A stretch of DNA of 64,000 nt from a virus: positions 1 to 64,000 of the IMG/VR virus record IMGVR_UViG_3300037054_000079. The stretch is one strand, 5' to 3'. Shown piece after piece: positions 4,766 to 30,670 of this stretch. The position numbers and the translations under genes were made by a program. Numbering within the stretch: the first letter of the stretch is position 1; each line of letters opens with the position of its first letter. The notes beneath the pieces were generated by a model. That model was not told the origin of the DNA. It saw nothing but the letters and a program-made list of their open reading frames with translations, and ran no database searches.

Positions 4766-5430
4766 TTGGGGACTCCCTTTTTGCGGAGATTACGAGCCTT
4801 AATCGCCGCACGCGCAAGCTGCAAAATGTGGTGCCGAGTGACTTCGGTCATACCGTCAATGCCGTTTACCTTGGCACTGCCGACCACTTTTCGAGCGATT
4901 TCAGTGTTTTCCAGTCCGGCCATTAACCATGTTCGGATCGTCTTGTCAAGCCGGGCTTTATCCTCTGCCGCAAAATGCCCGGCCCAAACTGCCAAACTGT
5001 GCCCGTGAATAGGGGTGTTCCCAATACGGGAACGGAGATACCGGAACGCCTTTTTGATAGCCTTGGTGCGGACTATTGCCACCCGCGCCGCTGCCCGATC
5101 TGCGGCCTTCATGGCTTCGCCGACTCGAATGCCACTGATCCCGGCGACATCGACGAGATCGCGCTCGATCATGTCTCGCACCCGGATTTCAGACTGATCG
5201 AGGATCGCGACCGTACCGTTCCAAATCTTGATGAACCGCGCGAGATTGGCTTTCTTGATCCGAGCCTCGACCGCGTGCAGCCGAGCCATCGTCTCGGGCC
5301 GCACGGGTTTGTGTACCGGGGGATGTTCGAGGCGATGCTTCGCACGGTTGCGGTCGCGGATCACCTTGCGGTTCACGCGCCCGAGCGGGGACAGCCAATG
5401 ATGATCGCTGTCGAGGTTGATGGTGGTCAT
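4762..5430 (-). CDS. MuF-like minor head protein (head morphogenesis)
   Basis: 222 residues, basic and helical. The C-terminal half contains a pattern typical of the MuF/SPP1 gp7 head-morphogenesis domain: IRTWLMAGLENTEIARKVVG followed by a DG..EVTRHHILQLARAAI segment. Proteins of this family bind the portal inside the procapsid. The gene is short for the family and lies just downstream of the portal and the 809-residue protein, the canonical position. It overlaps its upstream neighbour by four bases. The assignment is by motif and synteny. Confidence 0.6.
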   Translation of the reverse strand: MTTINLDSDHHWLSPLGRVNRKVIRDRNRAKHRLEHPPVHKPVRPETMARLHAVEARIKKANLARFIKIWNGTVAILDQSEIRVRDMIERDLVDVAGISGIRVGEAMKAADRAAARVAIVRTKAIKKAFRYLRSRIGNTPIHGHSLAVWAGHFAAEDKARLDKTIRTWLMAGLENTEIARKVVGSAKVNGIDGMTEVTRHHILQLARAAIKARNLRKKGVPK

Positions 5431-7856
5431 AGCTGTTGCTCTTTCGGAATTTTAGCTTTGTACTTGGCGACGATATCCTCTTGCTCAGGAGTGAGCTTGA
5501 TAGTGACCTTGCCCGCGTCCGGGTGCGGAGCAAGCTTCGTAATGAGTTTGTCGATATTGGTCGTTGGTCCGGGTCCCTCGATGACGTAACTCTTTCCAAT
5601 CGGGACATCCTCAGCCCGTGGCGCGCGATCTGAATAGGCATCCCAATTATGCCATGCGGTGCCGGTGATGACAACCTCGTGCTCACTATGCACGTTCTGG
5701 CCAAAGGCCGGGACCGACAAGACCGCCGTGCGCGGGACTTCGGCGCGCAGCACAACGCGACTCATGGTCGGTCCGGGCTGCTCATAAGTCCACAGGCCAT
5801 GTTGCGGGCCGGAAATGCTTACAGGATCAGCAAACTTTGTGATGGTCTTTCCCGAGTCCAATTTTAACTGCGTACCAACTGGTTTCCCAACAAGAGATGT
5901 TTCTTCGCCTGTGGCCAATTTCACGTCGCCAAGTACCGGCGGGTTAAATTCCGACTTCTGAATTTCGCCGTCGCGCTTGTGCGACAGTGTGATCCCGCGA
6001 TAGAGATTGACAACCAGGATGTCGGCTTTGTCTAGCATATACTGCGAGGTTTCCCACTTCGCGCGCGTTATGGCTTTCACGCCATCATAGCCGCCGACAT
6101 CCTTAAAATCCTTGTTTGCTTGGTCGATGACGGCTTGGCGCTCAATACCCTGCGGAGCTTTGTTGGTGGTGCCGCCCCAGCCGTTCGCCACGCTGGCGTC
6201 AGTCGTGAACGACGCCGCACCGTTACGTTGCAGGTCTAACCCCGGTAGCTTGATATAGGAGGCGCTGACTGCATCCTCTTTTATGGGTTCTGTCTTGAGA
6301 GTCGGCGGCCCTCCGGCCTTTTGGCTACGCTCGTAGATCGCATCGCGCGCGACAGCCTTTTGTTCTTCGGACATATTTTTGTCCGTGGATATTTTTACAG
6401 CGAATGCTCCTACGTCGCTGACATCATCAAGCTGTTTTGTAACGGCGGCCTTAAATTCTTCAAGAGTCCCGTCCTGCGCCACGTTACTTTCTGCAAACTT
6501 TTTATAGAGGTCCTCTACATCTGGCTTCGGGGGCGGCGCTTCACGTAAGCGCCCGCCGAGTTCGTCAGCCGCCGCGACCTGTATCAGCTTGCCCTCGCCG
6601 CCGGTCGAACTGCCTTTCCAGCCCTCCCACAGTTTTGCATCAGCGGCGCGGATGTCGGCAATATCCGGTGTGTTACCAACATTTGCTGCGCGCACTTTGA
6701 GTTCGTTCTCAATGGTTTTGATGTTTTCCGAGTACGGGTCAGATATCGTCTTTGACGATGCCAACTTCTCTTTCATCTCGTCTAGGTGAAGTTCGAGATC
6801 GGGAGTGCTGTACGCAGCCCATGAATACCGGGTCTCCGCCGCACCTATCCCGCGTTGCTCCATCAACTGCGCGGCGCGCGTGTCGGCCATGTACTTCGCG
6901 AGCGCCTGTGTCTTGATGTAATCCGAACCGCTGCCCTCGTTGAGCGGGTCCCACTTCTTCGGCGGCTCAAGTGAACCAAGCTCAGTCGTCTTTTCATCTT
7001 CGAGATCGTCGGCGAGCGAAGTGTTGTGCTTCGTCCACTCGTACTTTTCGTTGTCGTCCATCTCCGCCCACGCGGACTCTAGGGACTCGGTTACATTCTC
7101 AGACAGGTGGTCCGGCGCGTCGATCTTTTCGGCGTCCTTCTCAACTTTGTCATTGAACTGGTTCATGAAGTACGTTGTGATATCCGCGCGCATTTCCGGC
7201 GTGAGATGGTTTTCAAGAATGTCCGTGGGCGGTGTGATGCCCGGCATCGCAAGTTGATCGGGATGAAAGTTCGGATTTATATCTGTGGGGTGCTGTAGTT
7301 CCTGCGGATCAAATCCAATATCCGGATTGTGCTTGCTGCCGCTGTAATCATCGGCGGCCTCGATGGTGATCGCCTTCGCTAGATCATCAGAACTGTAGGG
7401 AATGTCCGGTTGGTCGTAGCCGTGACGGTCGGCTAGATAGTCAGTCAGCGTCTCCGCTTTCCAATCGTCATCTTCGGCAAGTTGCTGCGCGGCTTCTCGC
7501 TGCGGGTCCCCGCTCTCTTGCCAATTACTGACTTCGCTTTCATACTCTGAGTCGTAGTTGTTGGACTTGTAGGCTTCTTCGGCTTTCTCTTGCGAAGTGC
7601 CGCTCAGCGCATCCCAACTCGGTTCGTGTGTTACCTCGACTTCGCCCTCGTGTTCGGGAGCTTCGGTAGCGATCTTGTCGAGCGCCGGGCGCGCAGCCGC
7701 GTACTCATTCTCAAGTCGAGCAGCGGTATCCTTATTCCAGATATCGCCGCCCGCAACGGTAGCGACACGCGGATCGGGCGCGGCGGGGATGTCCCCACCT
7801 GCGCCCGCTGTCCACCGGCCTCTTGTATCGCGCTGCTCAGTTGAAACGTCCGCCAT
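5427..7856 (-). CDS. Large virion-associated protein with putative ADP-ribosyltransferase C-terminus
   Basis: 809 residues between portal and MuF-like genes. Residues 1-~560 are acidic, rich in Asp/Glu/Lys and low in recognisable motifs. The C-terminal ~190 residues carry a possible R-S-E mono-ADP-ribosyltransferase signature in the right order and spacing: LYRG (Arg ~620), PVSIS (Ser ~680-682) and SEHEVVI (ExE, Glu ~725/727), preceded by VVLRAEVPRTAVLSVPA, the usual strand before ExE. Phage ARTs such as T4 Alt are packaged and injected; MuF proteins are often fused or linked to ARTs. Catalytic function is inferred. The ATG at 7856 follows the portal stop closely. Confidence 0.6.
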   Translation of the reverse strand: MADVSTEQRDTRGRWTAGAGGDIPAAPDPRVATVAGGDIWNKDTAARLENEYAAARPALDKIATEAPEHEGEVEVTHEPSWDALSGTSQEKAEEAYKSNNYDSEYESEVSNWQESGDPQREAAQQLAEDDDWKAETLTDYLADRHGYDQPDIPYSSDDLAKAITIEAADDYSGSKHNPDIGFDPQELQHPTDINPNFHPDQLAMPGITPPTDILENHLTPEMRADITTYFMNQFNDKVEKDAEKIDAPDHLSENVTESLESAWAEMDDNEKYEWTKHNTSLADDLEDEKTTELGSLEPPKKWDPLNEGSGSDYIKTQALAKYMADTRAAQLMEQRGIGAAETRYSWAAYSTPDLELHLDEMKEKLASSKTISDPYSENIKTIENELKVRAANVGNTPDIADIRAADAKLWEGWKGSSTGGEGKLIQVAAADELGGRLREAPPPKPDVEDLYKKFAESNVAQDGTLEEFKAAVTKQLDDVSDVGAFAVKISTDKNMSEEQKAVARDAIYERSQKAGGPPTLKTEPIKEDAVSASYIKLPGLDLQRNGAASFTTDASVANGWGGTTNKAPQGIERQAVIDQANKDFKDVGGYDGVKAITRAKWETSQYMLDKADILVVNLYRGITLSHKRDGEIQKSEFNPPVLGDVKLATGEETSLVGKPVGTQLKLDSGKTITKFADPVSISGPQHGLWTYEQPGPTMSRVVLRAEVPRTAVLSVPAFGQNVHSEHEVVITGTAWHNWDAYSDRAPRAEDVPIGKSYVIEGPGPTTNIDKLITKLAPHPDAGKVTIKLTPEQEDIVAKYKAKIPKEQQL

Positions 7857-7861
7857 GGCGC

Positions 7862-9511
7862 TTAATACTTCTTGTTAGCCGAAGCACCTTTCGGTCCTAA
7901 TTTTCTTTTTAGCGGAACCGGCGAGCCGCGCACGTGCGGCGTGACCGGGACGTTCGCGTTCGGCGGGATCATCGGCGCAGTTGGGTTCGGCGGTGCCTGA
8001 GTTGGATCGCCGGGATCGTCGCCGCTGCCTTCCGTATCAAGGAACGACTCGTCAGTTACCGTTTGCTGCGGCCCGACCATTGAGCCAATCAGTGTCTCCG
8101 CCTCGTCCTCGATCTGTTTGGTCTCTTGATCGAAGTCCATTTCGGTCATGTCGTTGAGCCGCATCATGCGGTGCATCGACTTGAGCGACAACGGCAGACC
8201 AAGTTGCTTGGCTTGCATGAAGGCGAGCAGCGCGGCTCCGGCGACGTTGGTGTCGGCGAAGTCGGTCGTCGGCTCTACACTCACTTCGTCCGGGTCCTCA
8301 CCGACCCACTGTGCGGCGTATTTGAGCGCCTGTTCCAAACCCGCTCCCGCCGTTTGCGCGGTTGCCGAGATCGTGGTCGTGCGCGCCGCGACGCGGATAC
8401 GCAATGCCTCGCCACTTTCGCCGCGCGCATTGCCCACATCCATAAACGAGACGCCGAACGACGCGGCTATATCCGAGTCATTCTTGAGAGATTGACGCAT
8501 TTCGCCAAGCCCCGTCGCTGAGACGCCGATGTATTTGGCGTCGCCGCCGATCTTGACTGAGATCAAGCCCTTGTTGCCGACGCGCAAGTCCGTCCCGTCA
8601 TCGCTTGGGTTCGCGCCGACGAGGACAAGAGTTTGCTGGCCCTGCATGTAGAGGGTCTGCCGATAGTCCGCCTCGCCGCGATAGATCGCGAGTGCGAGGT
8701 TGCTCAGCCCGAGCAGCGGGGGGACTTCCGGCTCAGGTACAAGGTCGTTCGCTCCGATGAAGACGAACGGGATATCTTGAAGCGTGGTGCCACCAATCTG
8801 CGGAACGATAAAATCGTTCGGGACTGGCATTGACATATCGTTGACTTTGACGCAGATCGAGAACTGATCGGTCGGCTCAGGGCGCGTCCATCCGCTTTCC
8901 AGTGCGTCAGGAATGCCACGAGACAAGACGCGATGCTTGCGCTCAGTGACCCATGTAAAGCCTTCACGGCGAAAGCCGCTCTCGTCGAGCACGACGAGAT
9001 CGAGCATGTTGCGCCCCTCGTTGAGCTTACCGGCGTCCCAATTGATGATGCGCTGCGGATTGTAGAATGAGATGTACGGCGTCGCCTGATCCACGTCCGC
9101 GCCAGTCGGCACGTCCACGAGCAAACCGCAGCGGCCATAGGTGAGTTGCGCCTCGTTGATCCGGCGCAACAGCATTTGCAGACCCTCGCCTTGAATTGTC
9201 GCCTTGTTCATCATACTGGCGAGCTTCGGCGGCAGCGTAATCGTGGCGGGCTTCATGTGCATGATGCCGACCATGGCTTTCACGGCATCACGGACGCAAT
9301 CGTGAAAGACAGCGCGCGTCAAGTATGCGTCGTAATCTTTCCAGCCCGGAGCCATCGAGGATGTCATACCATCACTCACCATCGCTTCGGTCGCGGGCAG
9401 ATATGTGATACGCTTCTTCTTGACCTCGCGCTCACCGGCATAGGTATCCGCCATTTGCAGCCAACTTCCGACTTGCTCAACGTAATTTGGGTGCTTATCG
9501 TCAAGACTCAA
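7862..9511 (-). CDS. Portal protein (DUF4055-like)
   Basis: About 550 residues. The start LDDKHPNYVEQVGSWLQMAD followed by AGEREVKKK.TYLP matches the N-terminus of DUF4055 portal proteins, and the order TerL, portal, ART/MuF supports it. Portals form the dodecameric DNA-entry ring. I prefer the TTG at 9511, which has GGGAGG five bases upstream. The longer GTG start at 9538 lacks a good site and lies inside the HNH copy B gene. The chosen start overlaps the HNH stop by 11 bases. Confidence 0.85.
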   Translation of the reverse strand: MSLDDKHPNYVEQVGSWLQMADTYAGEREVKKKRITYLPATEAMVSDGMTSSMAPGWKDYDAYLTRAVFHDCVRDAVKAMVGIMHMKPATITLPPKLASMMNKATIQGEGLQMLLRRINEAQLTYGRCGLLVDVPTGADVDQATPYISFYNPQRIINWDAGKLNEGRNMLDLVVLDESGFRREGFTWVTERKHRVLSRGIPDALESGWTRPEPTDQFSICVKVNDMSMPVPNDFIVPQIGGTTLQDIPFVFIGANDLVPEPEVPPLLGLSNLALAIYRGEADYRQTLYMQGQQTLVLVGANPSDDGTDLRVGNKGLISVKIGGDAKYIGVSATGLGEMRQSLKNDSDIAASFGVSFMDVGNARGESGEALRIRVAARTTTISATAQTAGAGLEQALKYAAQWVGEDPDEVSVEPTTDFADTNVAGAALLAFMQAKQLGLPLSLKSMHRMMRLNDMTEMDFDQETKQIEDEAETLIGSMVGPQQTVTDESFLDTEGSGDDPGDPTQAPPNPTAPMIPPNANVPVTPHVRGSPVPLKRKLGPKGASANKKY

Positions 9512-10034
9512 TTTGGCCTCCCACTGGATTTGCAACACGCTTCATCCACGAAGCGATTGCTTCATGTTCATCAGCGGTGCCGTCACTCTTTAGCTGGTTC
9601 GCGCGCCAACTCACGATGAAAACATTTCCTTTGACGTAACCCCGCGAGTTATCTTTCCGGTCAAGGGACGCCAAACTATATCGGGCCGCATCACGCGGGT
9701 CCCATCCTAACCTAGTCTCATAGACCAACCTCAATCCTAGAATTGGACAGTAGACAGGAAGCGGCAACAAATCCGCTTCTTGAAGATTGAACTCAAGTCT
9801 GCGCTTCTTCGCACTTTTCCGTGCAGTCGTGAGAAGTCTTTGAAGCGGCGGCCTTCCGTGATACCAAGCATCAAATTCTGCTTTGTGGCGCTCAGGATTT
9901 TCATTGCGACGTTTCGCACACCAATCAATGTTCTTTTGGTGGCTGTGCGGACTAGCATCATACCGCGCTCTCGTAGCGCGCCCCTTCGGCGTTACCGCGT
10001 AGATAGCTTGCCGTTCTGTGTGAGTCATCGACAT
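9501..10034 (-). CDS. HNH endonuclease, dispersed family copy B
   Basis: 177 residues. Same layout as copies A and D: basic N-terminus, RKSAKKRRLEFNLQEADLLP, CPILGLRLVY box and SLDRKDNSRGYVKGNVF. Inserted between large terminase and portal. Its last codons (GTG GGA GGC, residues VGG) also form the ribosome binding site of the portal gene. Start ATG at 10034 or 10028. Confidence 0.85.
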   Translation of the reverse strand: MSMTHTERQAIYAVTPKGRATRARYDASPHSHQKNIDWCAKRRNENPERHKAEFDAWYHGRPPLQRLLTTARKSAKKRRLEFNLQEADLLPLPVYCPILGLRLVYETRLGWDPRDAARYSLASLDRKDNSRGYVKGNVFIVSWRANQLKSDGTADEHEAIASWMKRVANPVGGQIES

Positions 10035-10049
10035 CCCAAGTTCACTCCA

Positions 10050-12437
10050 TTAAATGTGTCGGCTTATGACGCCGCGCGACTCATACCGAAGTCTATACCG
10101 AGTCATGTCGCCGCAGTTGCGGACAAGAATGCCACCCTCAACTGAGAAGGTGTGATTTGTGGGGACTGTCAAGCAATAGACATCGCGTCTATCTAGCAAG
10201 TTTTCGACGCCGACGCAAGTCACGCGCCTTGCATCGCCCGCTACAGAACTTTGCATCGTTTCGGCGCATATAAGACGCCTTGAAATATTCTCCGCACTCT
10301 TTGCAATGTAGCCCGACGCGCTTCTCAGCAACCGCCCGAACATGCTTTTCGTAATTATCGGAGTGCCATTTGCGTCCTTGCTTTGACGCATGCCATGCGG
10401 CGGCAGCGACTCGCGCGCGACCGAGATATTTCCTACCGCGCTCACCAAACTCTTTTCCGTGGTAGTGAACTCCAAAATGCTCTTTAACGGTAAGGCATTC
10501 AAGCTCAGTGCTCTCGTTCCTGTCCCGAGTAAACCGATGATGGATATGATGCCCATCCGGCACAGGTCCGTTATGGTGCTCCCACACTTGGATATGAAGG
10601 CGAACGCCTTTTCGCTGGAAATATTTCCCGCAAAGATAGTATCGAACTCCGTCGAACTCTTGGATCGTGTGGCTGATAACGATTGGCTGCATAGGACTTC
10701 CTTTCCGAGAAGGTCCTTAGCGTAACACCATTCATCTAAATCCACAAGGTATTTTTCGTCCGGCGTGCAGACTATTGACTGACCGCCTGAAAAGGTTAAT
10801 CGCACGACTTGGGCCGCTTTTCGCGTGAGCCGGGCGTCTTGATATGACTCGATCCGACTGACCGAATGAACATCTCCCGACTGCGGCAACTGCTCAATCG
10901 GGACTTGACCGCTAGGCAAGTCAACAAGAGTCCCGGCGGCAAAGCAGTGGTCTTCCGCCTCAGTGTCCACATCGTCGATTTTTACTTCATCCCTTGGCAG
11001 CACCGGAACAGTTTGCAACCATTGCTCGCAATTGCTGCAAATAAACAGACCCGGTATTTCACGATATCCGTTCGGCGGTCGCTTCGTTGCCTTGAGCCAT
11101 CGCCGGAGTTGCTCCCATCCTTGCTCGCGTGAGTGCGGACCCTTGTCCGCAGGCTCCCACAGGATGCCTCGGTGGTGGACGCCGTTATACACTATTGGTT
11201 TGGCAAAGTCATTAGCAATGCACACCCCATTATTATCGTCGAAAATGCCGGTGTCTGCGGGACCGCGTTTGACCCGGTTACGCTTGCCGTCTTCTGCGCG
11301 CCAGCCCCACTCTACCTCACGTTTCACGATGCCTTTGGCGATATCCTCGACCAGCATCCGCGACCCCTCGTTACGCTGCCCGCGCCAACCGTACCACTCT
11401 TGAATGAGAAACAAGTCGCCCCGAACAGTGGCGCGAACGCTACTGTCCGGGAACGTCAAGTCAGTACCATCGCTCTCCGCGAACCATCCGACTGAGAACG
11501 GTTTCGATGAGCCATAGTCGAAGGCGCGAGTGATAGTCCAAGTCGGGGGGACTTCGAAAGGCGGAACGACAACAATTGATTTATACTCATACCAAATATC
11601 GTCGAACATGCCGCCCGCGACGATATCCCAATCGCCGTCGAGCCATGCGCGGCGCTCGCTCTCGTTGCGCGCGGCGGCGATAATCCGGTTCTTGTATTCC
11701 GGATCGGTATGCAGTAGCAGCTTGTTCTCGTCGAGATGGCCGTGCACGGCGCGGCGCGGCGGCTCGCTGTGGCCTTCCGAGTCAAGCGAACCTTCGATCA
11801 GCGGACCGATGATGTGGCCCGGCGGCACGGGCAAGCGGTAGCGCAGCTTGACCCAATTGTGCCCGACGCCATATGGATTGGTCGTGGCGCGGACTTTGAG
11901 GGGGATACCCGGCGCAGTTGAACGTAGACACGAGAACATGGACTTGAAGCACTTGTCGTCAGGCCATGTCGTTAATTCTTCCCACCCGATCCATGGATAG
12001 TTGTGACCGTGGTAGTTGCTGTATTGCGATGGCACTTCGAAGTGGCGGAAGTAGAGCCGCTCGCCCGTGGGAAACTCCCACTGATATTTCATTTCGTTGT
12101 AGAGCGCGCCGGGACAGAACCGCCTAAACCACTTCTTGCTTTTCTCGATCACGTCGCTCAACTGCGGATGCGTCTGCCGGAATAGGATGCCGCGCCATTC
12201 AGCGCCGTAGCCTTGCCCGACATGCTGATAGAAATCCATGAGCAGCGCGTCAGTCTTGCCGGGGCCGCGCGTGCCTTCGTATAGAACTTCGGTAGTTGAG
12301 AAAGAAAGAAATGCCGCTTGCGAGCCGGGCTGCGCGGCCCACGCCACTTGTATTAGTTTTCCATCGTCGCCAGTGATGAATGGAACGTATTCATTGCCCA
12401 CAAGTTTGAACTTTTTTACAGTCGGGAACTTAGACAT
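10050..12437 (-). CDS. Terminase large subunit containing an intein
   Basis: 795-residue precursor. Exteins (1-497 and 775-795) give a 518-residue terminase: Walker A EGTRGPGKT (~54-62), an IGWEEL Walker B-like segment, then nuclease-domain acidic motifs AFDYG and PADTGIFDD. It packages DNA through the portal. An intein interrupts the nuclease half between AEDH and CGDMTRYRLRY. GIY-YIG and HNH genes flank it on both sides. The ATG at 12437 overlaps the GIY-YIG stop. The C-extein is only 21 residues. Confidence 0.93.
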   Translation of the reverse strand: MSKFPTVKKFKLVGNEYVPFITGDDGKLIQVAWAAQPGSQAAFLSFSTTEVLYEGTRGPGKTDALLMDFYQHVGQGYGAEWRGILFRQTHPQLSDVIEKSKKWFRRFCPGALYNEMKYQWEFPTGERLYFRHFEVPSQYSNYHGHNYPWIGWEELTTWPDDKCFKSMFSCLRSTAPGIPLKVRATTNPYGVGHNWVKLRYRLPVPPGHIIGPLIEGSLDSEGHSEPPRRAVHGHLDENKLLLHTDPEYKNRIIAAARNESERRAWLDGDWDIVAGGMFDDIWYEYKSIVVVPPFEVPPTWTITRAFDYGSSKPFSVGWFAESDGTDLTFPDSSVRATVRGDLFLIQEWYGWRGQRNEGSRMLVEDIAKGIVKREVEWGWRAEDGKRNRVKRGPADTGIFDDNNGVCIANDFAKPIVYNGVHHRGILWEPADKGPHSREQGWEQLRRWLKATKRPPNGYREIPGLFICSNCEQWLQTVPVLPRDEVKIDDVDTEAEDHCFAAGTLVDLPSGQVPIEQLPQSGDVHSVSRIESYQDARLTRKAAQVVRLTFSGGQSIVCTPDEKYLVDLDEWCYAKDLLGKEVLCSQSLSATRSKSSTEFDTIFAGNISSEKAFAFISKCGSTITDLCRMGIISIIGLLGTGTRALSLNALPLKSILEFTTTEKSLVSAVGNISVARESLPPHGMRQSKDANGTPIITKSMFGRLLRSASGYIAKSAENISRRLICAETMQSSVAGDARRVTCVGVENLLDRRDVYCLTVPTNHTFSVEGGILVRNCGDMTRYRLRYESRGVISRHI
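10116..10946 (-). mobile_element. Intein in the terminase large subunit
   Basis: 277 residues from Cys (10946) to Asn (10116). Block A is CFAAGTLVDLPSG, block B is VRLTFSGGQSIVCTPDE, block F is RRDVYCLTVPTNHTFSVEGG and block G is ILVRN followed by extein Cys. Two deviations from the canonical Hint fold residues are visible: Glu replaces the usual block B His (TPDE instead of TxxH) and Arg replaces the penultimate His. The middle of the intein has no recognisable endonuclease in frame; an HNH gene is encoded there in another frame. Confidence 0.88.
10189..10692 (-). CDS. HNH homing endonuclease nested out of frame in the terminase intein
   Basis: 167 residues, entirely inside the intein-coding DNA but in a different frame. 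It has its own ATG at 10692 behind AAGGAAG. Motifs: HIQVWEHHNGPVPDGHHIHH (HNH core with paired His, ~33-52), then a C-terminal zinc-knuckle CKECGEYF...FCSGRCKARDLRRRRK. This matches phage HNH endonucleases with a WExxNGPVPxGxxIHH core. The overlapping intein frame stays open across all 168 codons. The gene probably drives homing of the intein. Confidence 0.88.
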   Translation of the reverse strand: MQPIVISHTIQEFDGVRYYLCGKYFQRKGVRLHIQVWEHHNGPVPDGHHIHHRFTRDRNESTELECLTVKEHFGVHYHGKEFGERGRKYLGRARVAAAAWHASKQGRKWHSDNYEKHVRAVAEKRVGLHCKECGEYFKASYMRRNDAKFCSGRCKARDLRRRRKLAR

Positions 12438-13302
12438 GCGCGCTATCCCCGGACTTCCTGTGAAAGAGTTTAAGTGATGCGGATATCTTTTCCCGAGTCT
12501 CCCCTGAAATAAACTTACCCTTCTGCGCCTTCGACATATTTATGAGCGCGCCGGGCGTCGCTTTTCGTCCGGTATTGGCGTCAGATATTTTTGCACAGTG
12601 TTCTTCGGAGAGGGGCACGCCACGACGAAGATCAGCCGACAGCTTAATCAACTGCGACATATCCCGCCCGATCCCCGTTCCTTTCGCTTTATGAGTGGCA
12701 GATATTTTTTCGTTGGTCTCTATTGAGTGCGATCCGAGAACCCGCCCCTTGTTAGCCGTGCCAATCTTTGCTTTGGTCTCCGCTGAATGTTTATACCCGC
12801 GCGCCTTCCGAGTTGCGACTATTTTTGCAGTGTGTTCGGGCGTGTGCTTCTCGCCAAGTCTTGCCGCCGACATTCTTGCGCGCTGCTCAGGGGTGAGCTT
12901 CTTTCCATTTCTGCGACGCGCCGCCACCCGGTTAGCAATATGCTCAAGAGATTGCTTTCGTCCCTTGTGAGTTTTACTAGCCGCTGCTGCCAACTTCACA
13001 CGAGTTGATGGCAATGGATCGCGACCGCCGCTGCCACCCGCCGCTAGATTGTATCCGTTGGGCCATCGCGTGTTGAATGCCTCAATGGCTTGTTCCTCAA
13101 GCTCATAGATATATTCGTGACTACCACACGCGAGTACGCGGAAGCTCGCGGCGTCGCGGCCATAGTGCCGGATCGCATCGCCAATCTTTGATGCAGTTAT
13201 AGGGTGATGACCCCATCGGTCCCGCACATTTTTTGAGACGCCGATATACGACTTCTCACCAACCGTGATACTGTATAAGTAGTGGGGTTTTGACGTTTCC
13301 AT
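12430..13302 (-). CDS. GIY-YIG homing endonuclease with NUMOD3-type repeats
   Basis: 290 residues. The N-terminal GIY-YIG nuclease domain (YLYSITVGEKSYIGVSKN, ~8-25; WGHHP; Glu near ELEEQAIEAF; WPNGYNLAAGG) is followed by five or six helix-turn DNA-binding repeats of NUMOD3 type (for example HTPEHTAKIVATRKARG, HSAETKAKIGTANKGR). Such enzymes make site-specific breaks for homing. It sits between small and large terminase, overlapping TerL by eight bases and TerS by one (TGATG). Confidence 0.92.
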   Translation of the reverse strand: METSKPHYLYSITVGEKSYIGVSKNVRDRWGHHPITASKIGDAIRHYGRDAASFRVLACGSHEYIYELEEQAIEAFNTRWPNGYNLAAGGSGGRDPLPSTRVKLAAAASKTHKGRKQSLEHIANRVAARRRNGKKLTPEQRARMSAARLGEKHTPEHTAKIVATRKARGYKHSAETKAKIGTANKGRVLGSHSIETNEKISATHKAKGTGIGRDMSQLIKLSADLRRGVPLSEEHCAKISDANTGRKATPGALINMSKAQKGKFISGETREKISASLKLFHRKSGDSAHV

Positions 13303-13997
13303 CAGTCAAGCTCTAGCATTGCTTTATCCACCGCGTCAACAGTGTCGTCAGTAACGTCCTCGAACTCCACATCCTGAATTTCCTGCGTCCCACCAAATTC
13401 CTGTTCGAGTTCTGCCTCGGTCTTTTTGACGCCGACCACGAGCACGCCGCCGCTGTGTACCATGTCAACCGATGTGTGATCGCCGTACACGTTTCGGCGG
13501 CGCGTCTTCAAAATGAAGCGCATCATGTCCGGGTCTTGTTCGATGATGGTCTGTGGGATTGGTGCGCCGTTCTCGTCGCGCAAATACGCATCCATGCCTT
13601 CCAAGCCAAGATCAAGCTTGGTCTGATCGAACTTGTAAATCACGCCGTATTTGTTCGTGAGGGGCTTCGGCTGGCCAACAGCAAGACGGTGCGCAGCACG
13701 CTCAACTTTGTCGATGCCGTCTTCGAGCGCGTGTGCCCATGCCACATGGAACCGCGCCGTGATATCATTGCCGTGCTCGTCTTCGCCCACGACCACATCG
13801 AAACCATCGCCGACCTTACCTTTCTCGCTTTTCCCGAGATAGTATACCAGCGACGACCGCGAGATCGCGGCACGCCGACATACTTCGGCGATGACAGGCA
13901 TCTCGGTTACAAATTTGAGGATTGCTTGAAGGCGCTCAGGCGCATACTTGCGCACCAATAGCTGCCGATTTGCGGAACGAAAAATCTCTCGGGACAT
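13302..13997 (-). CDS. Putative terminase small subunit
   Basis: 231 residues with an N-terminal helix-turn-helix (about 20-55, PVIAEVCRRAAISRSSLVYYL) and an acidic C-terminal tail (EDVTDDTVDAVDKAMLELD). This layout and its position ahead of TerL fit a small terminase, the oligomer that recognises packaging sites. The start has AGGAGG upstream (14008 region). Homology is not obvious by eye beyond the HTH, so the call rests partly on synteny. Confidence 0.65.
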   Translation of the reverse strand: MSREIFRSANRQLLVRKYAPERLQAILKFVTEMPVIAEVCRRAAISRSSLVYYLGKSEKGKVGDGFDVVVGEDEHGNDITARFHVAWAHALEDGIDKVERAAHRLAVGQPKPLTNKYGVIYKFDQTKLDLGLEGMDAYLRDENGAPIPQTIIEQDPDMMRFILKTRRRNVYGDHTSVDMVHSGGVLVVGVKKTEAELEQEFGGTQEIQDVEFEDVTDDTVDAVDKAMLELD

Positions 13998-16875: not shown

Positions 16876-17210
16876 AGCCGCTTCCCCTCGTGATACGAGA
16901 CCGCGCTGATTTTCTTCAAGCCTTCGAGCTTCGACGCGGCGAGCCGATGATGGCCACTCTCCAAATAGAACTTCTTGGTCGGGTCCGCAATCCCGCACCT
17001 ATCGCGCAACTCCGGTGTAAGCGGACTCACGCGGATCGGGGGTAGCTCCCCTCCGGCCTCAAGCTTGGCCCGCATCCGTTTAACTTTTTCCACGTTCTCA
17101 TATTTATCGAGCGTGTGTCCGGTACTTGCGATCTGATCGACGGGGATCATGACCGGCTCCGGCTTGTTGGTGGCCACATCAATCCCGTGCATGTGAGCAG
17201 GCATTTTCAT
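16872..17210 (-). CDS. ParB-like N-terminal domain protein
   Basis: 112 residues. IPVDQI...VEKVKRMRAKLEAGGELPPI followed by FYLESGHHRLAASKLEGL is the ParB/Sulfiredoxin-like fold with the G-H-R-box; classical ParB has GERR/GxHR. It covers nearly the whole protein, so there is no HTH. Some such phage proteins act as nucleases or CTP-dependent switches; here function is unknown. Coupled by ATGA overlaps on both sides. Confidence 0.75.
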   Translation of the reverse strand: MKMPAHMHGIDVATNKPEPVMIPVDQIASTGHTLDKYENVEKVKRMRAKLEAGGELPPIRVSPLTPELRDRCGIADPTKKFYLESGHHRLAASKLEGLKKISAVSYHEGKRL

Positions 17211-17404
17211 AGCTCAACATCCTTTGGGACAGCCGTCCCTAACCTTTCATGAGCCTGACGATAACGTAGACTATGCGGCGTGAGATGCGGCAAGCCGGTG
17301 CGCTGACCCTCCATCCCTTTGTGCGCCTCGACCTGAGCCGACTTAGGATTTCGCGCGAGCATCGCCGCTGCGTCGTCATTCGTGCACGCTACCGGCTTCT
17401 TCAT
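17207..17404 (-). CDS. Small hypothetical protein
   Basis: 65 residues starting MKKPVACTNDDAAAMLARNP. The ATG at 17404 overlaps the KDA gene stop (ATGA) and has AGGAAA upstream; the longer frame upstream is not needed. Contains NPKSAQVEAHKG, similar to HPKSAQVPLGQ in the KDA protein at 19499. Function unknown. Confidence 0.6.
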   Translation of the reverse strand: MKKPVACTNDDAAAMLARNPKSAQVEAHKGMEGQRTGLPHLTPHSLRYRQAHERLGTAVPKDVEL

Positions 17405-17859
17405 TTTCCTGTCCCGCCCGTCATGATTGTCTTGCCCTTCCGGACATCCCAAATTGACTCTTGGTTCCGGTTCACGCCGGTCCGATACGCCGCGTTCTTG
17501 TTCTTGATGTTCTGCGACGGCTCGATCTCATAGTTGCCGGTCGTCTCGTTGCGGTAGCCGCCGACATGCCCGGCGGTTTTCAGCGCGCCCGCGTGTTGCT
17601 GCGCCCACGCTTGCAACGTCGCCTCGCTGTGTGCCGGATCGCCACCAAGCGGGGCAGTGAGCGCGTGTCCCGGAATAGCGACCTGATAACCGTTAGACGG
17701 TGCGCCGCCCTTGAGGTCAATCGTGAAACCTTCCGGGTGCGCGAGGATATGCTGCACAACTTGCGGACTCAAGAATGGTTTGCCGACCTGATCGACGCCG
17801 GTCGAGTGCGCAGCGGTGCCGCCGCGCGTATTGCTTCCGTGTCCTAATGCGTCTTTCAT
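17401..17859 (-). CDS. KDA-leader protein 1
   Basis: 152 residues. Leader MKDALGHGSNTRGG, then AAHSTGVDQVGKPF, then a domain without known motifs ending in WDVRKGKTIMTGG. ATG at 17859 chosen to begin at the conserved leader; it lies one base after the stop of the next member upstream. The C-terminal part contains a YRNETTGNYEIEPSQNIKNK stretch that looks like folded beta structure. Confidence 0.75.
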   Translation of the reverse strand: MKDALGHGSNTRGGTAAHSTGVDQVGKPFLSPQVVQHILAHPEGFTIDLKGGAPSNGYQVAIPGHALTAPLGGDPAHSEATLQAWAQQHAGALKTAGHVGGYRNETTGNYEIEPSQNIKNKNAAYRTGVNRNQESIWDVRKGKTIMTGGTGK

Positions 17860-17860
17860 T

Positions 17861-18046
17861 TCACTTGCCTGTTTGCTGTGCCTTTTGACGCAGGGCGGCA
17901 TTGAGTAGGACCTGTCGCTGCCCTCGTGATATGTCTACAAGGTCCCTGTCGCTCGCGCTACTTACGAGTGCGCTGCGCGGAACCGACCGGGCATCTTCTA
18001 CACCCGATTGATGCGCGGCGCTACCGTGTCCGAGTGCATCTTTCAT
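17861..18046 (-). CDS. KDA-leader protein 2
   Basis: 61 residues, among the shortest members: leader MKDALGHGS directly joined to AAHQSGVEDARS, then a short helical C-terminus ending LRQKAQQTGK. ATG at 18046 overlaps the upstream stop (ATGA), with GGGGAAAG as ribosome binding site. Confidence 0.75.
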   Translation of the reverse strand: MKDALGHGSAAHQSGVEDARSVPRSALVSSASDRDLVDISRGQRQVLLNAALRQKAQQTGK

Positions 18047-18258
18047 CGCTTTCCCCAAATCTTGTCGTGTTCGGCCATCATCTCGTCAGTGGTTTTCAGT
18101 TTGCCGATCCCGGTTTGATGCGCGGCGAGCTTGTCCGAGTCAAGAATGCCCTGCGCCCATGTGCCCGCTGCGCGATTGAACCCTGAAACCGCATCCCGGT
18201 AATTCTGTCCGCGCGCGGTGCCGTTACCGTCGCTTCCGTGACCGTGCGCATCCTTCAT
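18043..18258 (-). CDS. KDA-leader protein 3
   Basis: 71 residues. Leader MKDAHGHGSDGNG, then a helical middle and AAHQTGIGKLK, ending DEMMAEHDKIWGKR. Here the AHQTG motif is near residue 46 rather than directly after the leader. Four-base overlaps on both sides. Confidence 0.75.
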   Translation of the reverse strand: MKDAHGHGSDGNGTARGQNYRDAVSGFNRAAGTWAQGILDSDKLAAHQTGIGKLKTTDEMMAEHDKIWGKR

Positions 18259-18680
18259 CGTCCGACTGCCTTATGAAAACGATCTATCCGCGCCAGTTGC
18301 CCCTTGTTGGCTGGACCACCGTGTTCTCGCTTGAAGTCTTGGAGTGCAGCCGGTGAACCCCACTCGTGTCCCGACGAGTTATGCGTAGTCGAGTTTATCT
18401 GCGGAGCCGAATTTATATGCTGAGTCGGAATGCCGTGCTGAGCAGCCAGAACCATTTGGTGTGCAGTGCTAGAACCAAACTTTGCAGTGAGACCCGCTTC
18501 TGAGTTAGCTCCAAGTCGTTTGGACTGAAACTGATCCGCTAGAGCGTGACCGAAAGTAACCGGCTTATCATCGTACTGCCCACGCGCGACTTGATGCGCT
18601 ATCGAACCGTGAAAGCGGGACTCCGCCGCACCGCCGCCGCCGCCGCGCGCTTCGCTTCCGTGTCCCTTTGCATCCTTCAT
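18255..18680 (-). CDS. KDA-leader protein 4
   Basis: 141 residues. Leader MKDAKGHGSEARGGGGG, then two AHQ motifs (IAHQVARGQ and TAHQMVLAAQHG), His/Ser/Asn-rich middle and a basic helical end. No enzyme motif seen. The double AHQ motif suggests internal duplication. Confidence 0.75.
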   Translation of the reverse strand: MKDAKGHGSEARGGGGGAAESRFHGSIAHQVARGQYDDKPVTFGHALADQFQSKRLGANSEAGLTAKFGSSTAHQMVLAAQHGIPTQHINSAPQINSTTHNSSGHEWGSPAALQDFKREHGGPANKGQLARIDRFHKAVGR

Positions 18681-18683
18681 GGC

Positions 18684-19097
18684 TTAAAACCTTTTGTTCT
18701 TCCCGACGTATTCGGGACTGGCCGGGTCATGGAACCTAGCCCGATCACGCCCCCATGCGACACCGCTGCGATTTTGAGCTTCCTCGCCGACTGCTTTCGC
18801 AATTGCGTTGTGCATCTTTCCCGGATCGTCCATGCCGACCATCGTCACTCCCTTCGGCAACGACATTCCGCCGTGTACCGGAACGCTGCCCGACTTCGGG
18901 CCATTGCCTGCGGTCGCGCTGGCGGCGTTCATAAAGTCCGGCTTCGGACCTTCGCCCGCCATGTAATCGAGGAAGTCATGAATGCCACGCCGATTTTCAT
19001 TCATCGGCTTGGCACCGTCTTTGACGCGCATCGCGTTGAGGCGGTCAAACGTGCTGCCGCCGCGACTGTCACTCCCGTGTCCTTTTGCGTCTTTCAT
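18684..19097 (-). CDS. KDA-leader protein 5
   Basis: 137 residues. Leader MKDAKGHGSDSRGG, then NENRRGIHDFLDYMAGEGPK, a GPKSGSVPVHGG segment related to the PKSAQVP motif of neighbours, and an Arg/His-rich end (WGRDRARFHDPASPEYVG). ATG at 19097 behind GAGGAT. No known fold recognised. Confidence 0.75.
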   Translation of the reverse strand: MKDAKGHGSDSRGGSTFDRLNAMRVKDGAKPMNENRRGIHDFLDYMAGEGPKPDFMNAASATAGNGPKSGSVPVHGGMSLPKGVTMVGMDDPGKMHNAIAKAVGEEAQNRSGVAWGRDRARFHDPASPEYVGKNKRF

Positions 19098-19104
19098 GGC
19101 ATCC

Positions 19105-19497
19105 TCACTTGAATGATTTGCGCCGCATCGTGTCAACGTCCGTGCCGCCCGTACCGAGTGCCTTGTGCAGCGACCGGGCGAGGCCGCCGTTGAATTCATT
19201 GTTGATGGCGTCGGCGTGGCTCACGCCCTTCTTGATACTCTCCGCCGCGCGTTGAGCGCCCCAGAGATAAATCCCGAGCGCATTCGGGTTGTAGTAGGAC
19301 CCCTTCACTTCGGCCCGAGCTTGTTCTTTCCGGTCGTAGCCGGTGACCGCGTGTGACAAAGCCCTGTGAACGTCGCCCGACGCCAACACCTTGCGCACCA
19401 TGCTTTGATGCGCAGCCATTTCGCCGGGGCCGAACTGCTTAGTGAGCGCCGTGCCGCCGCGACTTTCGCTGCCGTGTCCGCCTGCATCTTTTGCCAT
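19105..19497 (-). CDS. KDA-leader protein 6
   Basis: 130 residues. Leader MAKDAGGHGSESRGG, then AAHQSMVRKVLASGDVHRAL and a mostly helical C-terminus with SYYNPNALGIYLWGAQRA. The leader DNA is almost identical to members at 20288 and 21258. Function unknown. Confidence 0.75.
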   Translation of the reverse strand: MAKDAGGHGSESRGGTALTKQFGPGEMAAHQSMVRKVLASGDVHRALSHAVTGYDRKEQARAEVKGSYYNPNALGIYLWGAQRAAESIKKGVSHADAINNEFNGGLARSLHKALGTGGTDVDTMRRKSFK

Positions 19498-19498
19498 G

Positions 19499-19765
19499 TT
19501 ACACTCCCCGCCTACGATTTTCAGCGCCCGCCGGAAGCGCGACCATGCGCCCGCGCGCGAGCGCGGTCTTTGCAGCTTGGAAACTTTGCCCGAGCGGAAC
19601 CTGAGCCGACTTAGGGTGCGCCAGCCCGAGCGCCTGCGCCGCCGCTAAGTCTTGCGGCGTGCGCGTCGGGAAGTGTCGTTCGTCGATCCCTCGACGAATA
19701 GAAAGCTGTTCGGCTTTCGCGCTGCCGGTCGGATTGCTGCCGTGGCCCTGTGCATCTTTTGCCAT
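19499..19765 (-). CDS. KDA-leader protein 7
   Basis: 88 residues. Leader MAKDAQGHGSNPTGS, then helical sequence and LAHPKSAQVPLGQSFQAAK. The last third is Arg-rich. It lacks the AHxxGV motif but shares PKSAQV with 17207-17404. Confidence 0.75.
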   Translation of the reverse strand: MAKDAQGHGSNPTGSAKAEQLSIRRGIDERHFPTRTPQDLAAAQALGLAHPKSAQVPLGQSFQAAKTALARGRMVALPAGAENRRRGV

Positions 19766-19769
19766 TGTC

Positions 19770-20288
19770 TTACCCTTTCACGCGCCGAACTGTATGTCCG
19801 GCGAAATCATTGCCTGTCAAGTAGCGGAGCGCGCCCGAGATATGATCGGCGGGGAAGCTATTGCTGCCCTTCTTTGACGCCAGATAGTCGGGCATCGAAA
19901 CTGCGTCGTGGATCGACGGACCCCCGCTGCGGGAAATTCCGCCGCCCTTCCCTTCGTCCACACCGAAGCCGTTGTTCTTGCCGAGGTTCATGCGCGCCGC
20001 GACTTCGCCGGTCGGCGAAACGATTTCGTGCGTGTAGCTGTTCATGTTGAACTTTTGCGCGGGCGCGGGTTGACCAACTTGCGCGACACCCGACGAGTGC
20101 GCCGCTAGGGCGGAGACGTTTTTCACAGCTTGTGAATTTGCAGCGGCTTCCGCCGTGGTCGGTTGACGACCGAACATGCGTTGACCACCTTGGACCCTCG
20201 GATTGTATCCGGGCTTGCCACTTGCGCTCTTGGCATAGTCACCGCCGCCGCGACTTTCGCTGCCGTGTCCGCCTGCATCTTTCGCCAT
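19770..20288 (-). CDS. KDA-leader protein 8
   Basis: 172 residues. Leader MAKDAGGHGSESRGGG, a Gln/Ala-rich middle, AAHSSGVAQVGQPAP (~86-100) and a C-terminal domain with Gly-rich turns (GKNNGFGVDEGKGGG). The longest spacing between leader and second motif in the array. Function unknown. Confidence 0.75.
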   Translation of the reverse strand: MAKDAGGHGSESRGGGDYAKSASGKPGYNPRVQGGQRMFGRQPTTAEAAANSQAVKNVSALAAHSSGVAQVGQPAPAQKFNMNSYTHEIVSPTGEVAARMNLGKNNGFGVDEGKGGGISRSGGPSIHDAVSMPDYLASKKGSNSFPADHISGALRYLTGNDFAGHTVRRVKG

Positions 20289-20291
20289 GAC

Positions 20292-20444
20292 TCAATCTCC
20301 CAAAAAGCTGTAGACCTGTTTCACGATATCCTCGTGCTGCACCATTGCAATCGCACGCGCGGGGCCAGCCGGATACCAAAACTCGACGAGGACTTTATGT
20401 CGCCACATCGCCGCTTCGCGCATCGCTGTCCAGAACATGAGCAT
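20292..20444 (-). CDS. Small aromatic-rich protein between KDA genes
   Basis: 50 residues beginning MLMFWTAMREAAMWRHK and ending KQVYSFLGD. Its ATG overlaps the upstream stop as TGATG and its stop lies three bases before the next KDA start, so it is probably translated. No KDA leader. Function unknown. Confidence 0.6.
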   Translation of the reverse strand: MLMFWTAMREAAMWRHKVLVEFWYPAGPARAIAMVQHEDIVKQVYSFLGD

Positions 20445-20665
20445 CAGTTCACTCCGCAACCTGCTTTGAACTTCCCTTTATTGAACCGAGGGTTTGTCCC
20501 GGCCAGTGCATCGGCTAAATCCCCGACTATCTTCGAGTGCGGCTGGCCTACATTTTTTGCCAGTACACCCGAGAGCAACTGAAAATGCTTCGGCCCCATC
20601 GCAACGCCGCGCCCGATCTGTTCGACGCCCTCCGAATGCTGCCCTCTGTCAGCGGCCTTCTTCAT
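20444..20665 (-). CDS. Leader-less KDA-array relative
   Basis: 73 residues starting MKKAADRGQHSEGVEQIGRG. It lacks the KDA leader but starts with the second conserved motif (QHSEGVEQIG; compare AHSTGVDQVG), so is probably a member that lost, or never had, the leader. AAGGACAGC precedes the ATG. One of the few members with a Cys (GCGVN end). Confidence 0.65.
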   Translation of the reverse strand: MKKAADRGQHSEGVEQIGRGVAMGPKHFQLLSGVLAKNVGQPHSKIVGDLADALAGTNPRFNKGKFKAGCGVN

Positions 20666-20673
20666 AGCTGTCC

Positions 20674-21258
20674 TTAGATTGGTCGAGTCTTTTGCCGAGC
20701 TACAGGTGCAGCCCGATTAAAAGTTTGGGTCCCGGCGCGCCCCGGTGAAAATGAAGCTTCGGGCTTGTACGTGCGACTCGATCCACTCTTGATGTCGCTG
20801 CGCTCGTCGCGCTCCCAATTGGCAGCCGCCTCGCGACGATCAGCCGGAGAGAACATTTGCTTGCCACTAGCCGCGCCCGAACCGTGCTGCTCGCCATAGG
20901 CTTGCGCGGCGCGGTCGGCATGATATTTCCACAACGTCTGCGCCTTGGCGGAGTCATAGACGCCCTTGTCCATTTTCTTGCCAAGGTTGTCGCGGATCGG
21001 CTGCATCGACTGACGGTGGAGATTGGCGTCGTTGTCGGCGAACAGCCGCAACTCGCGTGAGTTGGCACCTTCCGGCGCGAGTTTGCCAACCTGATCTACA
21101 CCCGTGCCGTGCGCGGGGATACCGACGATGGGCGGATTGTTGGATCGCGCCATGACGCCTTGGAGAAGTTGTGCGCCCTTGCTTGTATATCCGGGAACAA
21201 CAGGTGCGCCGCCACCGCCGCGCGCCTCGCTACCGTGTCCGCCTGCATCTTTTGCCAT
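20674..21258 (-). CDS. KDA-leader protein 9 (largest member)
   Basis: 194 residues. Leader MAKDAGGHGSEARGGGG, then PAHGTGVDQVGKLAPEG (~49-65) and a helical, charged domain (DNDANLHRQSMQPIRDNLGK, ADRREAAANWERDERS) with a basic end. ATG at 21258 behind GGGAGA; the longer upstream frame includes unrelated sequence and is rejected. No catalytic motif seen. Confidence 0.75.
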   Translation of the reverse strand: MAKDAGGHGSEARGGGGAPVVPGYTSKGAQLLQGVMARSNNPPIVGIPAHGTGVDQVGKLAPEGANSRELRLFADNDANLHRQSMQPIRDNLGKKMDKGVYDSAKAQTLWKYHADRAAQAYGEQHGSGAASGKQMFSPADRREAAANWERDERSDIKSGSSRTYKPEASFSPGRAGTQTFNRAAPVARQKTRPI

Positions 21259-21530
21259 TACCGTCTCCCAAAGTTCTTGAGCGCCTGCAACAGCCCGGCT
21301 CCGTGGCCCGACTGCGGATCGACACTCCGCAACTGTTCGCGAACTCGCGAGAGCGTCTTTTGCGAGTCGGTCATCGCGCCTGCATTGAGGATTTTGCCAC
21401 TGAAACCGGGGGTGCCCGTGCCGAGACCAATGCGAGTATGGTTCATTGGCATGGGATCGTGCGGACGATATCCAAAATCGAGACCGCCGCCGCGCCCGTC
21501 GCTGCCGTGTCCTCGTGCGTCCTTTGCCAT
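21258..21530 (-). CDS. KDA-leader protein 10
   Basis: 90 residues. Leader MAKDARGHGSDGRGGG, then a Gly/Pro-rich middle (MNHTRIGLGTGTPGFSG) and a helical end (LSRVREQLRSVDPQSGHGAG). First KDA gene in transcription order. GGAGAC precedes the ATG at 21530. Lacks the AHxxGV motif. Confidence 0.75.
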   Translation of the reverse strand: MAKDARGHGSDGRGGGLDFGYRPHDPMPMNHTRIGLGTGTPGFSGKILNAGAMTDSQKTLSRVREQLRSVDPQSGHGAGLLQALKNFGRR

Positions 21531-29532: not shown

Positions 29533-29927
29533 GTCGGATCGTCGGAGATGGTTACTGTTTGGTTAATGCGTTCCATGACAATCCGTGCCCGCTTCGATGG
29601 TGCCTCAGTTAGAAACGATCCCAAGCGCCCCGCGTCATAGGGCGGCTTTTTCCCGACGCGATAATACTGATCCGCCGTGATATCGTAGCGATGGCCGGTC
29701 AAAGTATTCTCAAGCCACCAATGCACGTCGCCGGTATCGTCCTTGCCGTGATACGGTCGGAAGGGTGACGCTCGCGCGCCAAGCAAGTGATACAGTGCCT
29801 CCGATGCAACGTAGCAATGTCCGTACATCGGATTGCTCACGTGCTCGCGATACTTCGGTCGCAATAGGTCCGGTGTCAGCACCGCGCGAATTTTTGGAAT
29901 GATCTCGTCTACTGTTTCCATGGTCAC
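29529..29927 (-). CDS. Hypothetical protein (YunG-like pattern)
   Basis: 132 residues. MYGHCYVASEALYHLLG, then VHWWLENTLTGHRYDITADQ and FLTEAPSKRARIVMERI, a pattern shared by phage proteins resembling YunG (papain-like fold suggested by Cys and His but not proven). GTG at 29927 overlaps the Mom stop; ATG at 29921 is the alternative. Tight coupling to the Mom-like gene may mean a joint role. Confidence 0.6.
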   Translation of the reverse strand: MTMETVDEIIPKIRAVLTPDLLRPKYREHVSNPMYGHCYVASEALYHLLGARASPFRPYHGKDDTGDVHWWLENTLTGHRYDITADQYYRVGKKPPYDAGRLGSFLTEAPSKRARIVMERINQTVTISDDPT

Positions 29928-30670
29928 ATCATGAACTCATAGGGTTTCGGATACGGCAGAGACTTGAGGCCGAGCCGCTTCGCCGATGTTTTACCTGCGA
30001 CCGACAACGCGCGCCAGTAGAGATATTTCCCGGCATCAAAATGCGGTTCGACTGTGCTCGTCGGTGAAATCTTTTGCGTCGCTTCGAGAATGCCGTCGCG
30101 CGGGATCAGGAAGCCGCGCGCTGTGATATAGACTTCGGCTTCCGCTTCGGTCGATATTCCGGCGGCGACTATCTCGCCAAGTACCACGGCGAGCGCCCGA
30201 AGCTTCTCCGCCGAACGTGTACCGTAGCGCAGGTTGAGCGTGCGCCCCGGCACGAACACGCTGTCGATTATCAAGCCATCGTTGGTCGGCGGTCGCAGGC
30301 CGTCGAATTTCCAGCCGCAAGCTTGGTACACGCCGCCGTGTTGGGCAACCGTGTTGTCGGCAAACGCAATGATTACCTTATGCCCGCGTTTGCGCAGATC
30401 ATCGCAGCACCATGCGACGAACTGTGACATAGGCACCTTGCAATCCGGTTCGCGGACAAGCCGCCCAAGTGCTACGACCGGCTCTTTATAGCGAGTCGGC
30501 GAGATCAGCGCCGCCGCTGCCAAGTGACCGTCCTCGTGCCGGATACCGTAGGAGATGATCTCGTTCGTATTGAGACGCTTCGAGTAGTGGAAGTCTTCCA
30601 CTAGCCTGAGCATCTCTTTTGTCTTGATGACTTCGAAGTTTGGAATTGGAGCGGCCCCTAGAGGTTGCAC
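29924..30670 (-). CDS. Mom-like DNA modification protein (GNAT fold)
   Basis: 248 residues. The first ~155 residues match the Mom/phage GNAT-type family: DFHYSKRL near 27, LAAAALISP, GRLVREPDCKVPMSQFVAWC, KVIIAFADNT and QHGGVYQACGWKFDGLRPP. Mom of phage Mu converts adenine to a carbamoylmethyl derivative that blocks restriction. The C-terminal ~90 residues are an extension with FLIPRDGILEATQKI and AKRLGLKSLPYPKPYEF, unusual for Mom. The GTG start at 30670 is tentative. Modification of phage DNA is inferred. Confidence 0.75.
   Translation of the reverse strand: MQPLGAAPIPNFEVIKTKEMLRLVEDFHYSKRLNTNEIISYGIRHEDGHLAAAALISPTRYKEPVVALGRLVREPDCKVPMSQFVAWCCDDLRKRGHKVIIAFADNTVAQHGGVYQACGWKFDGLRPPTNDGLIIDSVFVPGRTLNLRYGTRSAEKLRALAVVLGEIVAAGISTEAEAEVYITARGFLIPRDGILEATQKISPTSTVEPHFDAGKYLYWRALSVAGKTSAKRLGLKSLPYPKPYEFMM

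Follow-up and report, generated by a model that had tools for sequence, protein, structure and literature searches.

Why should one short N-terminal sequence stand in front of ten otherwise different small proteins in a phage genome? The question is raised by a 64,000-nucleotide stretch of viral DNA (the window), positions 1 to 64,000 of the IMG/VR virus record IMGVR_UViG_3300037054_000079, which comprises 96,109 bp and is itself a fragment. At 17401-21530, on the minus strand, the window carries ten genes for proteins of 61-194 residues that start with M(A)KDAxGHGS, the K, D, A, G, H, G and S of this tag being identical in all ten. Behind the tag, the bodies give no BLASTP match to each other at E<=1e-3. 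Both the common start and the unrelated bodies had been pointed out in a preliminary description of the locus, and we confirm them. Judging from the sequences, we propose that M(A/P)KDxxGHGS is probably a short virion-loading signal and that the array is an exchangeable set of injected proteins. The features on which we draw are the conservation and position of the tag, its synonymous codons, the diversity of the bodies, the operon sites, the presence of polyvalent-type domains in some members and a near-zero cysteine content.

The array genes are packed end to end, with several ATGA-type overlaps, often of 1-4 nt. Their description as a single unit holds insofar as they are closely spaced on the same strand, but an untagged gene (20444-20665) lies inside. 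The RGG or glycine-rich stretch assigned to all of them is found as RGG after the tag in seven of the ten proteins. The motif AH(S/Q)(S/T)GV(D/E)QVG, said to occur in most members, proved less common, since even the shorter AHxxG(V/I) is present in only 5 of the 10 and the full motif in fewer. The suggested late promoter and terminator have no support beyond chance: we found no terminator at the end of the array (11 terminator-like matches versus 10.3 expected from shuffles), and same-strand small genes run on beyond it toward the small terminase gene. An eleventh tagged gene, with a VWYHGSP motif, lies outside the window at record positions 88593-89114.

A protein search with the last gene of the array (gene 10) yielded 22 loci, nearly all of them with further tagged genes, and a DNA pattern for MKDAxGHG yielded 86 stretches in IMG/VR. 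Over all loci there are 251 distinct complete tagged proteins, in which the tag begins at residue 2 (200 proteins) or residue 3 (51 proteins); one chance match (with T) was dropped, leaving 250. In these K, D, G, H, G and S are invariant under a regular expression that also permitted E, Y and A/T/P/N, the first x is mostly A, and the second is free (K, L, Q, R, G and others). Because the DNA pattern itself demanded K, D, A, G, H and G, the invariance is informative mainly for the genes recovered from neighbourhoods and for S. A scan for near-variants inside the arrays returned five candidates, namely KDAKGRGS, KDALGRGS, KDAKGRGG, KDANGNGV and one that is clearly unrelated. A reversed control pattern had no match in any of the 34 related records and genomes, compared with up to 13 matches per record for the real pattern, and the tag is therefore not a product of chance. 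The preliminary description had made its proposal depend on conservation of the leader in related phages, and across the relatives the tag is indeed conserved. The tagged proteins have 42-302 residues (median 127) and a median isoelectric point of 9.9. Among isolate phages neither a nucleotide search with the array DNA nor a tblastn search with the tag consensus, for which a 27-residue query is insensitive, gave a match, and in the literature searched the tag is not described. Two contigs with tagged genes had been binned with Hyphomicrobiales MAGs, so that soil Hyphomicrobiales are a first guess for the hosts. Pattern matches without GHGS or without arrays were dismissed as chance (L036, L058, L069, L070, L092 and most of the genome_contigs matches L115-L119, L121 and L122). 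Untagged array genes in the L023 gap, L035 and L045 have a common N-terminus of their own, M(A)W(T/S)(E/D)EAR(x)A, which is possibly another tag.

Once the tag is removed, the bodies fall into 95 clusters by coverage-based clustering. We used this procedure instead of loose single-linkage clustering (61 clusters), in which low-complexity bodies were merged, 87 of them into one cluster. A backbone order of body clusters S4, S2, S0, S3, S1 recurs, and around it other cassettes are gained, lost or exchanged. Some short motifs are shared by many bodies, AHxxG(V/I/T) occurring in 82 of the 250 (4.6 expected from shuffles) and PVHxxM in 42 (0.15 expected). A related observation is the motif (A)ALxxGPKSxxVPVHxxM, found at 16687-16875, at 17207-17404 and in many array loci, in tagged as well as untagged small proteins of the region. 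A tblastn search of isolate phages with one S2 body gave no match.

The 250 tagged proteins contain only 8 cysteines in 31,228 residues (0.026%), where 200-400 would be expected, and six of the eight sit in two doubtful open reading frames (ORFs). Depletion is far stronger for cysteine than for any other residue, and when each body cluster is represented by a single protein the count is 8 in 11,319 residues. In this phage itself, cysteine makes up 0.64% of the virion proteins and 1.29% of the non-virion proteins. P22 gp7/16/20 have no cysteine in 1,309 residues and T7 gp14/15/16/6.7/7.3 have two in 2,448, compared with 0.67-1.76% in other P22 and T7 proteins, and T4 IPI-III have none in 388. 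Cysteine is likewise absent from the tape measures of this clade (L173-L186; record 90144-92615), 14 of which have none in 10,912 residues. A lack of cysteine may be characteristic of ejected phage proteins in general, and by this analogy its near-absence here would be the strongest functional evidence for packaging and ejection. Family S2 includes proteins with and without the tag. A conserved cysteine (RF..AC) is present in all six untagged homologues from other contigs and likewise in the window's untagged array member, whereas in 18 of 18 tagged members it is replaced by A, S or V and none has cysteine (Fisher p about 1e-5 for 26 sequences, kinship uncorrected).

The genomic setting is that of late modules. 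Tagged genes are confined to one strand in each related record, a portal is found in 25 of 29 such records, and in those holding both terminase and portal the array lies 5' of the two. In the window, the terminase subunits, the portal and a head-morphogenesis protein are encoded downstream of the array on the same strand (Table 1), and tail genes, among them those for the tape measure and the major tail protein, occupy that strand at the record's right-hand end. The tail operon is also the second site of tagged genes, which are located just behind the tape measure in G000, G003, G007, G008, G009, G026 and G032; other records have the same conserved tail genes without a tagged gene. Most of the genes inserted there start with a motif, YHGS, FHGT or YHGT, that by eye resembles ADP-ribosyltransferases (ARTs), and the G026 and G032 members exceed the Pfam cut-off for ART-PolyVal. 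The nearest isolate relatives of the portal, at about 47% identity, belong to Roseobacter phage RDJL3 and PaMx25-like Pseudomonas phages. No tag was seen in the stretch of RDJL3 that was read, nor in contig L132, whose portal is 41% identical.

Table 1. Positions of the array genes and of other features in the window
Feature	Position	Strand	Length (residues)	Remarks
Tagged gene 1	21258..21530	-	90	MAKDARGHGSDGRGGG; body cluster S4, in relatives often first in array
Tagged gene 2	20674..21258	-	194	MAKDAGGHGSEARGGG; AHGTGVDQVG
Untagged gene within array	20444..20665	-	73	Homologue of array cluster S2; conserved cysteine retained (FKAGCGV)
Tagged gene 3	19770..20288	-	172	AHSSGVAQVG
Tagged gene 4	19499..19765	-	88	HPKSAQVPLG motif
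Tagged gene 5	19105..19497	-	130	36 nt of leader DNA identical to gene 3
Tagged gene 6	18684..19097	-	137	PKSGSVPVHGGM motif
Tagged gene 7	18255..18680	-	141	
Tagged gene 8	18043..18258	-	71	AHQTGIGKLK
Tagged gene 9	17861..18046	-	61	AHQSGVEDAR immediately after tag
Tagged gene 10	17401..17859	-	152	AHSTGVDQVG; cluster S1, in relatives usually last in array
Terminase small subunit	13302..13997	-		phrog_4044, E 6e-5; downstream of array
GIY-YIG homing endonuclease	12430..13302	-		Between small and large terminase
Terminase large subunit	10050..12437	-		52-73% identical to those of array-bearing records; C-terminal extension of ~300 residues, missing in most relatives, present in G008
Apparent further endonuclease-like ORF	9501..10034	-		Between large terminase and portal
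Portal protein	7862..9538	-		Downstream of array, same strand
Protein behind portal	5427..7856	-	809	N-terminal motif RDTRGRWTAGAGG; no cysteine; C-terminal LYRG...SEHEVV
Mom-like DNA modification protein	29924..30670	-		phrog_1384

Apart from these features, repeated DNA at 1142-1681 gives a repeat of ~38 residues in a plus-strand frame and probably belongs to a repeat-rich gene, the strand of which is uncertain.

Some of the bodies carry recognizable domains. At least four tagged proteins (L095, L027, L013 and L010) score above the Pfam cut-off for ART-PolyVal (PF18760), GNAT is found by Pfam in tagged proteins of L057 and L071, and there are weaker matches to an M57-like peptidase and to ParB-like proteins. 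Across 12 long records, the sole ART-PolyVal match falls on a tagged array gene of G003. Tagged proteins have at most one recognized domain each, and most bodies have no match in the polyvalent repertoire. The body type of the eleventh tagged gene recurs (46% identity, with a relative of that gene as the query) in L193 (IMGVR_UViG_3300044732_001271), as part of an open frame that spans at least 2,156 residues. This large polyvalent protein, which has no cysteine in 2,156 residues, combines the VWYHGSP-type domain with the Pfam domains LPD5 and LPD1 (Large polyvalent protein-associated domains). An AlphaFold model of the VWYHGSP body family from two sequences failed, with a predicted local distance difference test score of 31, so that the ART-like reading of this family rests on the motif as seen by eye; a PDB profile search with the ART-PolyVal group gave nothing convincing. 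For gene 10, a model based on 27 relatives has a well-folded body preceded by a disordered tag (residues 1-19). Its fold has no significant match in PDB; in BFVD it aligns, with E-values down to 1e-8, to domains of phage proteins that have 433-1,102 residues, some of these proteins being named Zeta toxin or XkdF. One S1 homologue, a 433-residue protein of mycobacteriophage Tonenili with a single cysteine, is encoded between head and tail genes, a position that is suggestive of a virion setting and of nothing more specific.

A comparable motif is found at the start of larger proteins. Directly behind the portal, proteins of ~290-810 residues begin with RDxxG(R/Q)WTxGG-like motifs; cysteine-free head-module proteins with such a start include the 809-residue protein of the window and those of L034, L035, L052, L053, L079, L094, L106 and L130. 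The RDxxG(R/Q)W proteins plus one related protein have no cysteine in 5,305 residues. The C-terminus of the 809-residue protein looks ART-like by eye only, and neither Pfam nor a PDB profile search gave a convincing match for it. The similarity of RDxxG(R/Q)WTxGG to KDxxG(H/R)GSxxRGG is suggestive rather than proven. Nonetheless, one might speculate, more tentatively than for the tag itself, that this clade of soil phages uses a loading code, with KDxxG(H/R)GS for small cargo and RDxxG(R/Q)WTxGG for large cargo behind the portal. An open-ended set of swappable single-domain effectors would then be packaged, possibly without propeptide cleavage, acquisition of the tag would force the loss of cysteine, and the tag together with a lack of cysteine would predict injection.

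If the tag is a loading signal, the tagged proteins would be expressed late, either from the dense row of cassettes that precedes terminase and portal or from the tape-measure site. The disordered tag would dock on the nascent particle, with the scaffold, the portal or the inner capsid as the probable partner. The proteins would be carried in the virion and then ejected with the DNA via the tail into the next host, where the bodies would act as separate single-domain effectors such as ADP-ribosyltransferases, acetyltransferases, ParB-like proteins, metallopeptidase-like proteins and many others. Packaging, ejection, the docking partner and the effector roles are what we infer from the features described above. 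Several observations weigh against this scheme. Late-operon sites and a lack of cysteine would also fit another extracytoplasmic role, and many tagged bodies have no recognizable domain. An untagged array homologue of S2 in L064 is without cysteine, as are several other untagged small genes of the array region, so that the tag is not the sole correlate of cysteine lack; of the interspersed untagged ORFs, considered as an in-operon control, many are spurious or themselves cysteine-free. The absence of cysteine is not a strict rule either, since T4 Alt, which is truly ejected, has 3 cysteines in 682 residues, and because the sequences are related the counts are not independent.

The tag might instead dock a late intracellular partner, for example in lysis control, in a replication compartment or on a host target, with the proteins never being packaged. 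A short, N-terminal tag that is disordered in the model could bind anything, and some untagged small genes are interspersed in the array; we nevertheless consider such docking unlikely, as it leaves unexplained the near-absence of cysteine, the loss of the conserved cysteine from tagged S2 proteins and the insertion of polyvalent-type cargo in the tail operon. The preliminary description had named two roles, a packaging signal and a mark for a processing enzyme. The former is favoured by evidence that is indirect but comes from several independent sides, namely the placement and conservation of the tag, its two late-operon sites, the polyvalent-type cargo and the near-zero cysteine. The latter, in which a prohead protease would cut off the tag as it does the propeptides of T4, appears improbable, even though the position and length of the tag are like those of T4 propeptides (PMC9026906). 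No Peptidase_S78 or CLP-type protease was found in 12 fragmentary records, in which other protease families were not searched, and S77 was seen only below threshold and in G007 alone (11.8 bits versus a cut-off of 27). T4-like removal of the tag is therefore not expected; moreover, there is no LxE/IxE-like cleavage consensus after the tag, and the N-termini of T4 internal proteins are unlike it. Even less probable is a leader that acts purely as DNA or RNA, as a translation enhancer or a recombination seed for the shuffling of cassettes, and has no role as a peptide. The near-identity of leader DNA reported earlier is real, the copies starting at 20288 and 19497 being identical across 36 nt, a third differing at 1 of 24 nt and the others matching at 21-22 of 24; AAA, GCA and GGA codons are somewhat over-used in the tag, and the cassettes clearly shuffle. 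Elsewhere, however, the codons differ synonymously, with residues invariant while third positions vary and the second x free, and upstream of the tagged genes the DNA is conserved at the Shine-Dalgarno site only, from which it follows that the peptide is the thing selected. The leader DNA may additionally aid recombination. Finally, an ordinary expansion of a duplicated early-gene family without shared targeting is hardly credible, the preliminary description having recognized proof of homologous duplicate bodies as fatal to its proposal: bodies of the S2 type do occur untagged in other viral contigs, but clustering of the bodies contradicts common descent by duplication and the genes sit in late modules.

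Proteins injected by phages disarm or take over the host, yet only for a few phages is it clear which proteins enter the cell in this way and what selects them for packaging. Were the tag indeed a loading signal, it would amount to a rule readable from sequence, one that singles out ~250 proteins of uncultured soil phages as candidates for injection; they fall into some 95 clusters, most of which have no known function. It would also suggest a short peptide by which cargo might be directed into phage particles, and the cysteine signature could be used to screen the genomes of other phages rapidly for ejected proteins.

How does this system compare with those already known? In T4, no more than 10 residues of IPIII, from its capsid targeting sequence (CTS), are needed for packaging, foreign proteins fused to a CTS are packaged and delivered, and one CTS-bearing protein, Alt, is an ADP-ribosyltransferase (PMC9026906). 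As in T4 IPI, IPII, IPIII and Alt, a short N-terminal sequence here precedes different bodies (250 proteins, 95 body clusters), some cargo is of the ART type and cysteine is nearly absent. The two signals have no sequence similarity (MKTYQEFIAEA/MKTFKEFTST in T4 versus MKDAxGHGS), and here there are up to 13 tag matches per record and no recognized prohead protease of the families searched. We would thus regard the T4 CTS as the nearest functional analogue of the tag, which is not itself a CTS member and whose role in packaging is predicted from metagenomic contigs. The MuF polymorphic toxins of phage head modules also place a constant N-terminal part before variable effector-like domains (PMC5576092). 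Their constant part is a folded structural domain, whereas here it has 8 residues, and when 101 tagged proteins were scanned against Pfam and PHROGs, MuF was not among the 25 most-matched families. The ejection proteins P22 gp7/16/20 and T7 gp14/15/16 share the near-zero cysteine of the tagged proteins but are large, channel-forming and without a shared tag, and none forms an effector array. Polyvalent proteins, for which packaging and injection have been predicted, combine 2-15 domains in a single polypeptide (Iyer et al. 2017; PMC5512222). They resemble the tagged set in their repertoire of ART-PolyVal, ParB and metallopeptidase-like domains, and one tagged body type occurs inside an LPD1/LPD5 protein; the bodies here are instead placed on separate small tagged chains of 42-302 residues. 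The array would in effect be a polyvalent protein dismantled into exchangeable pieces.

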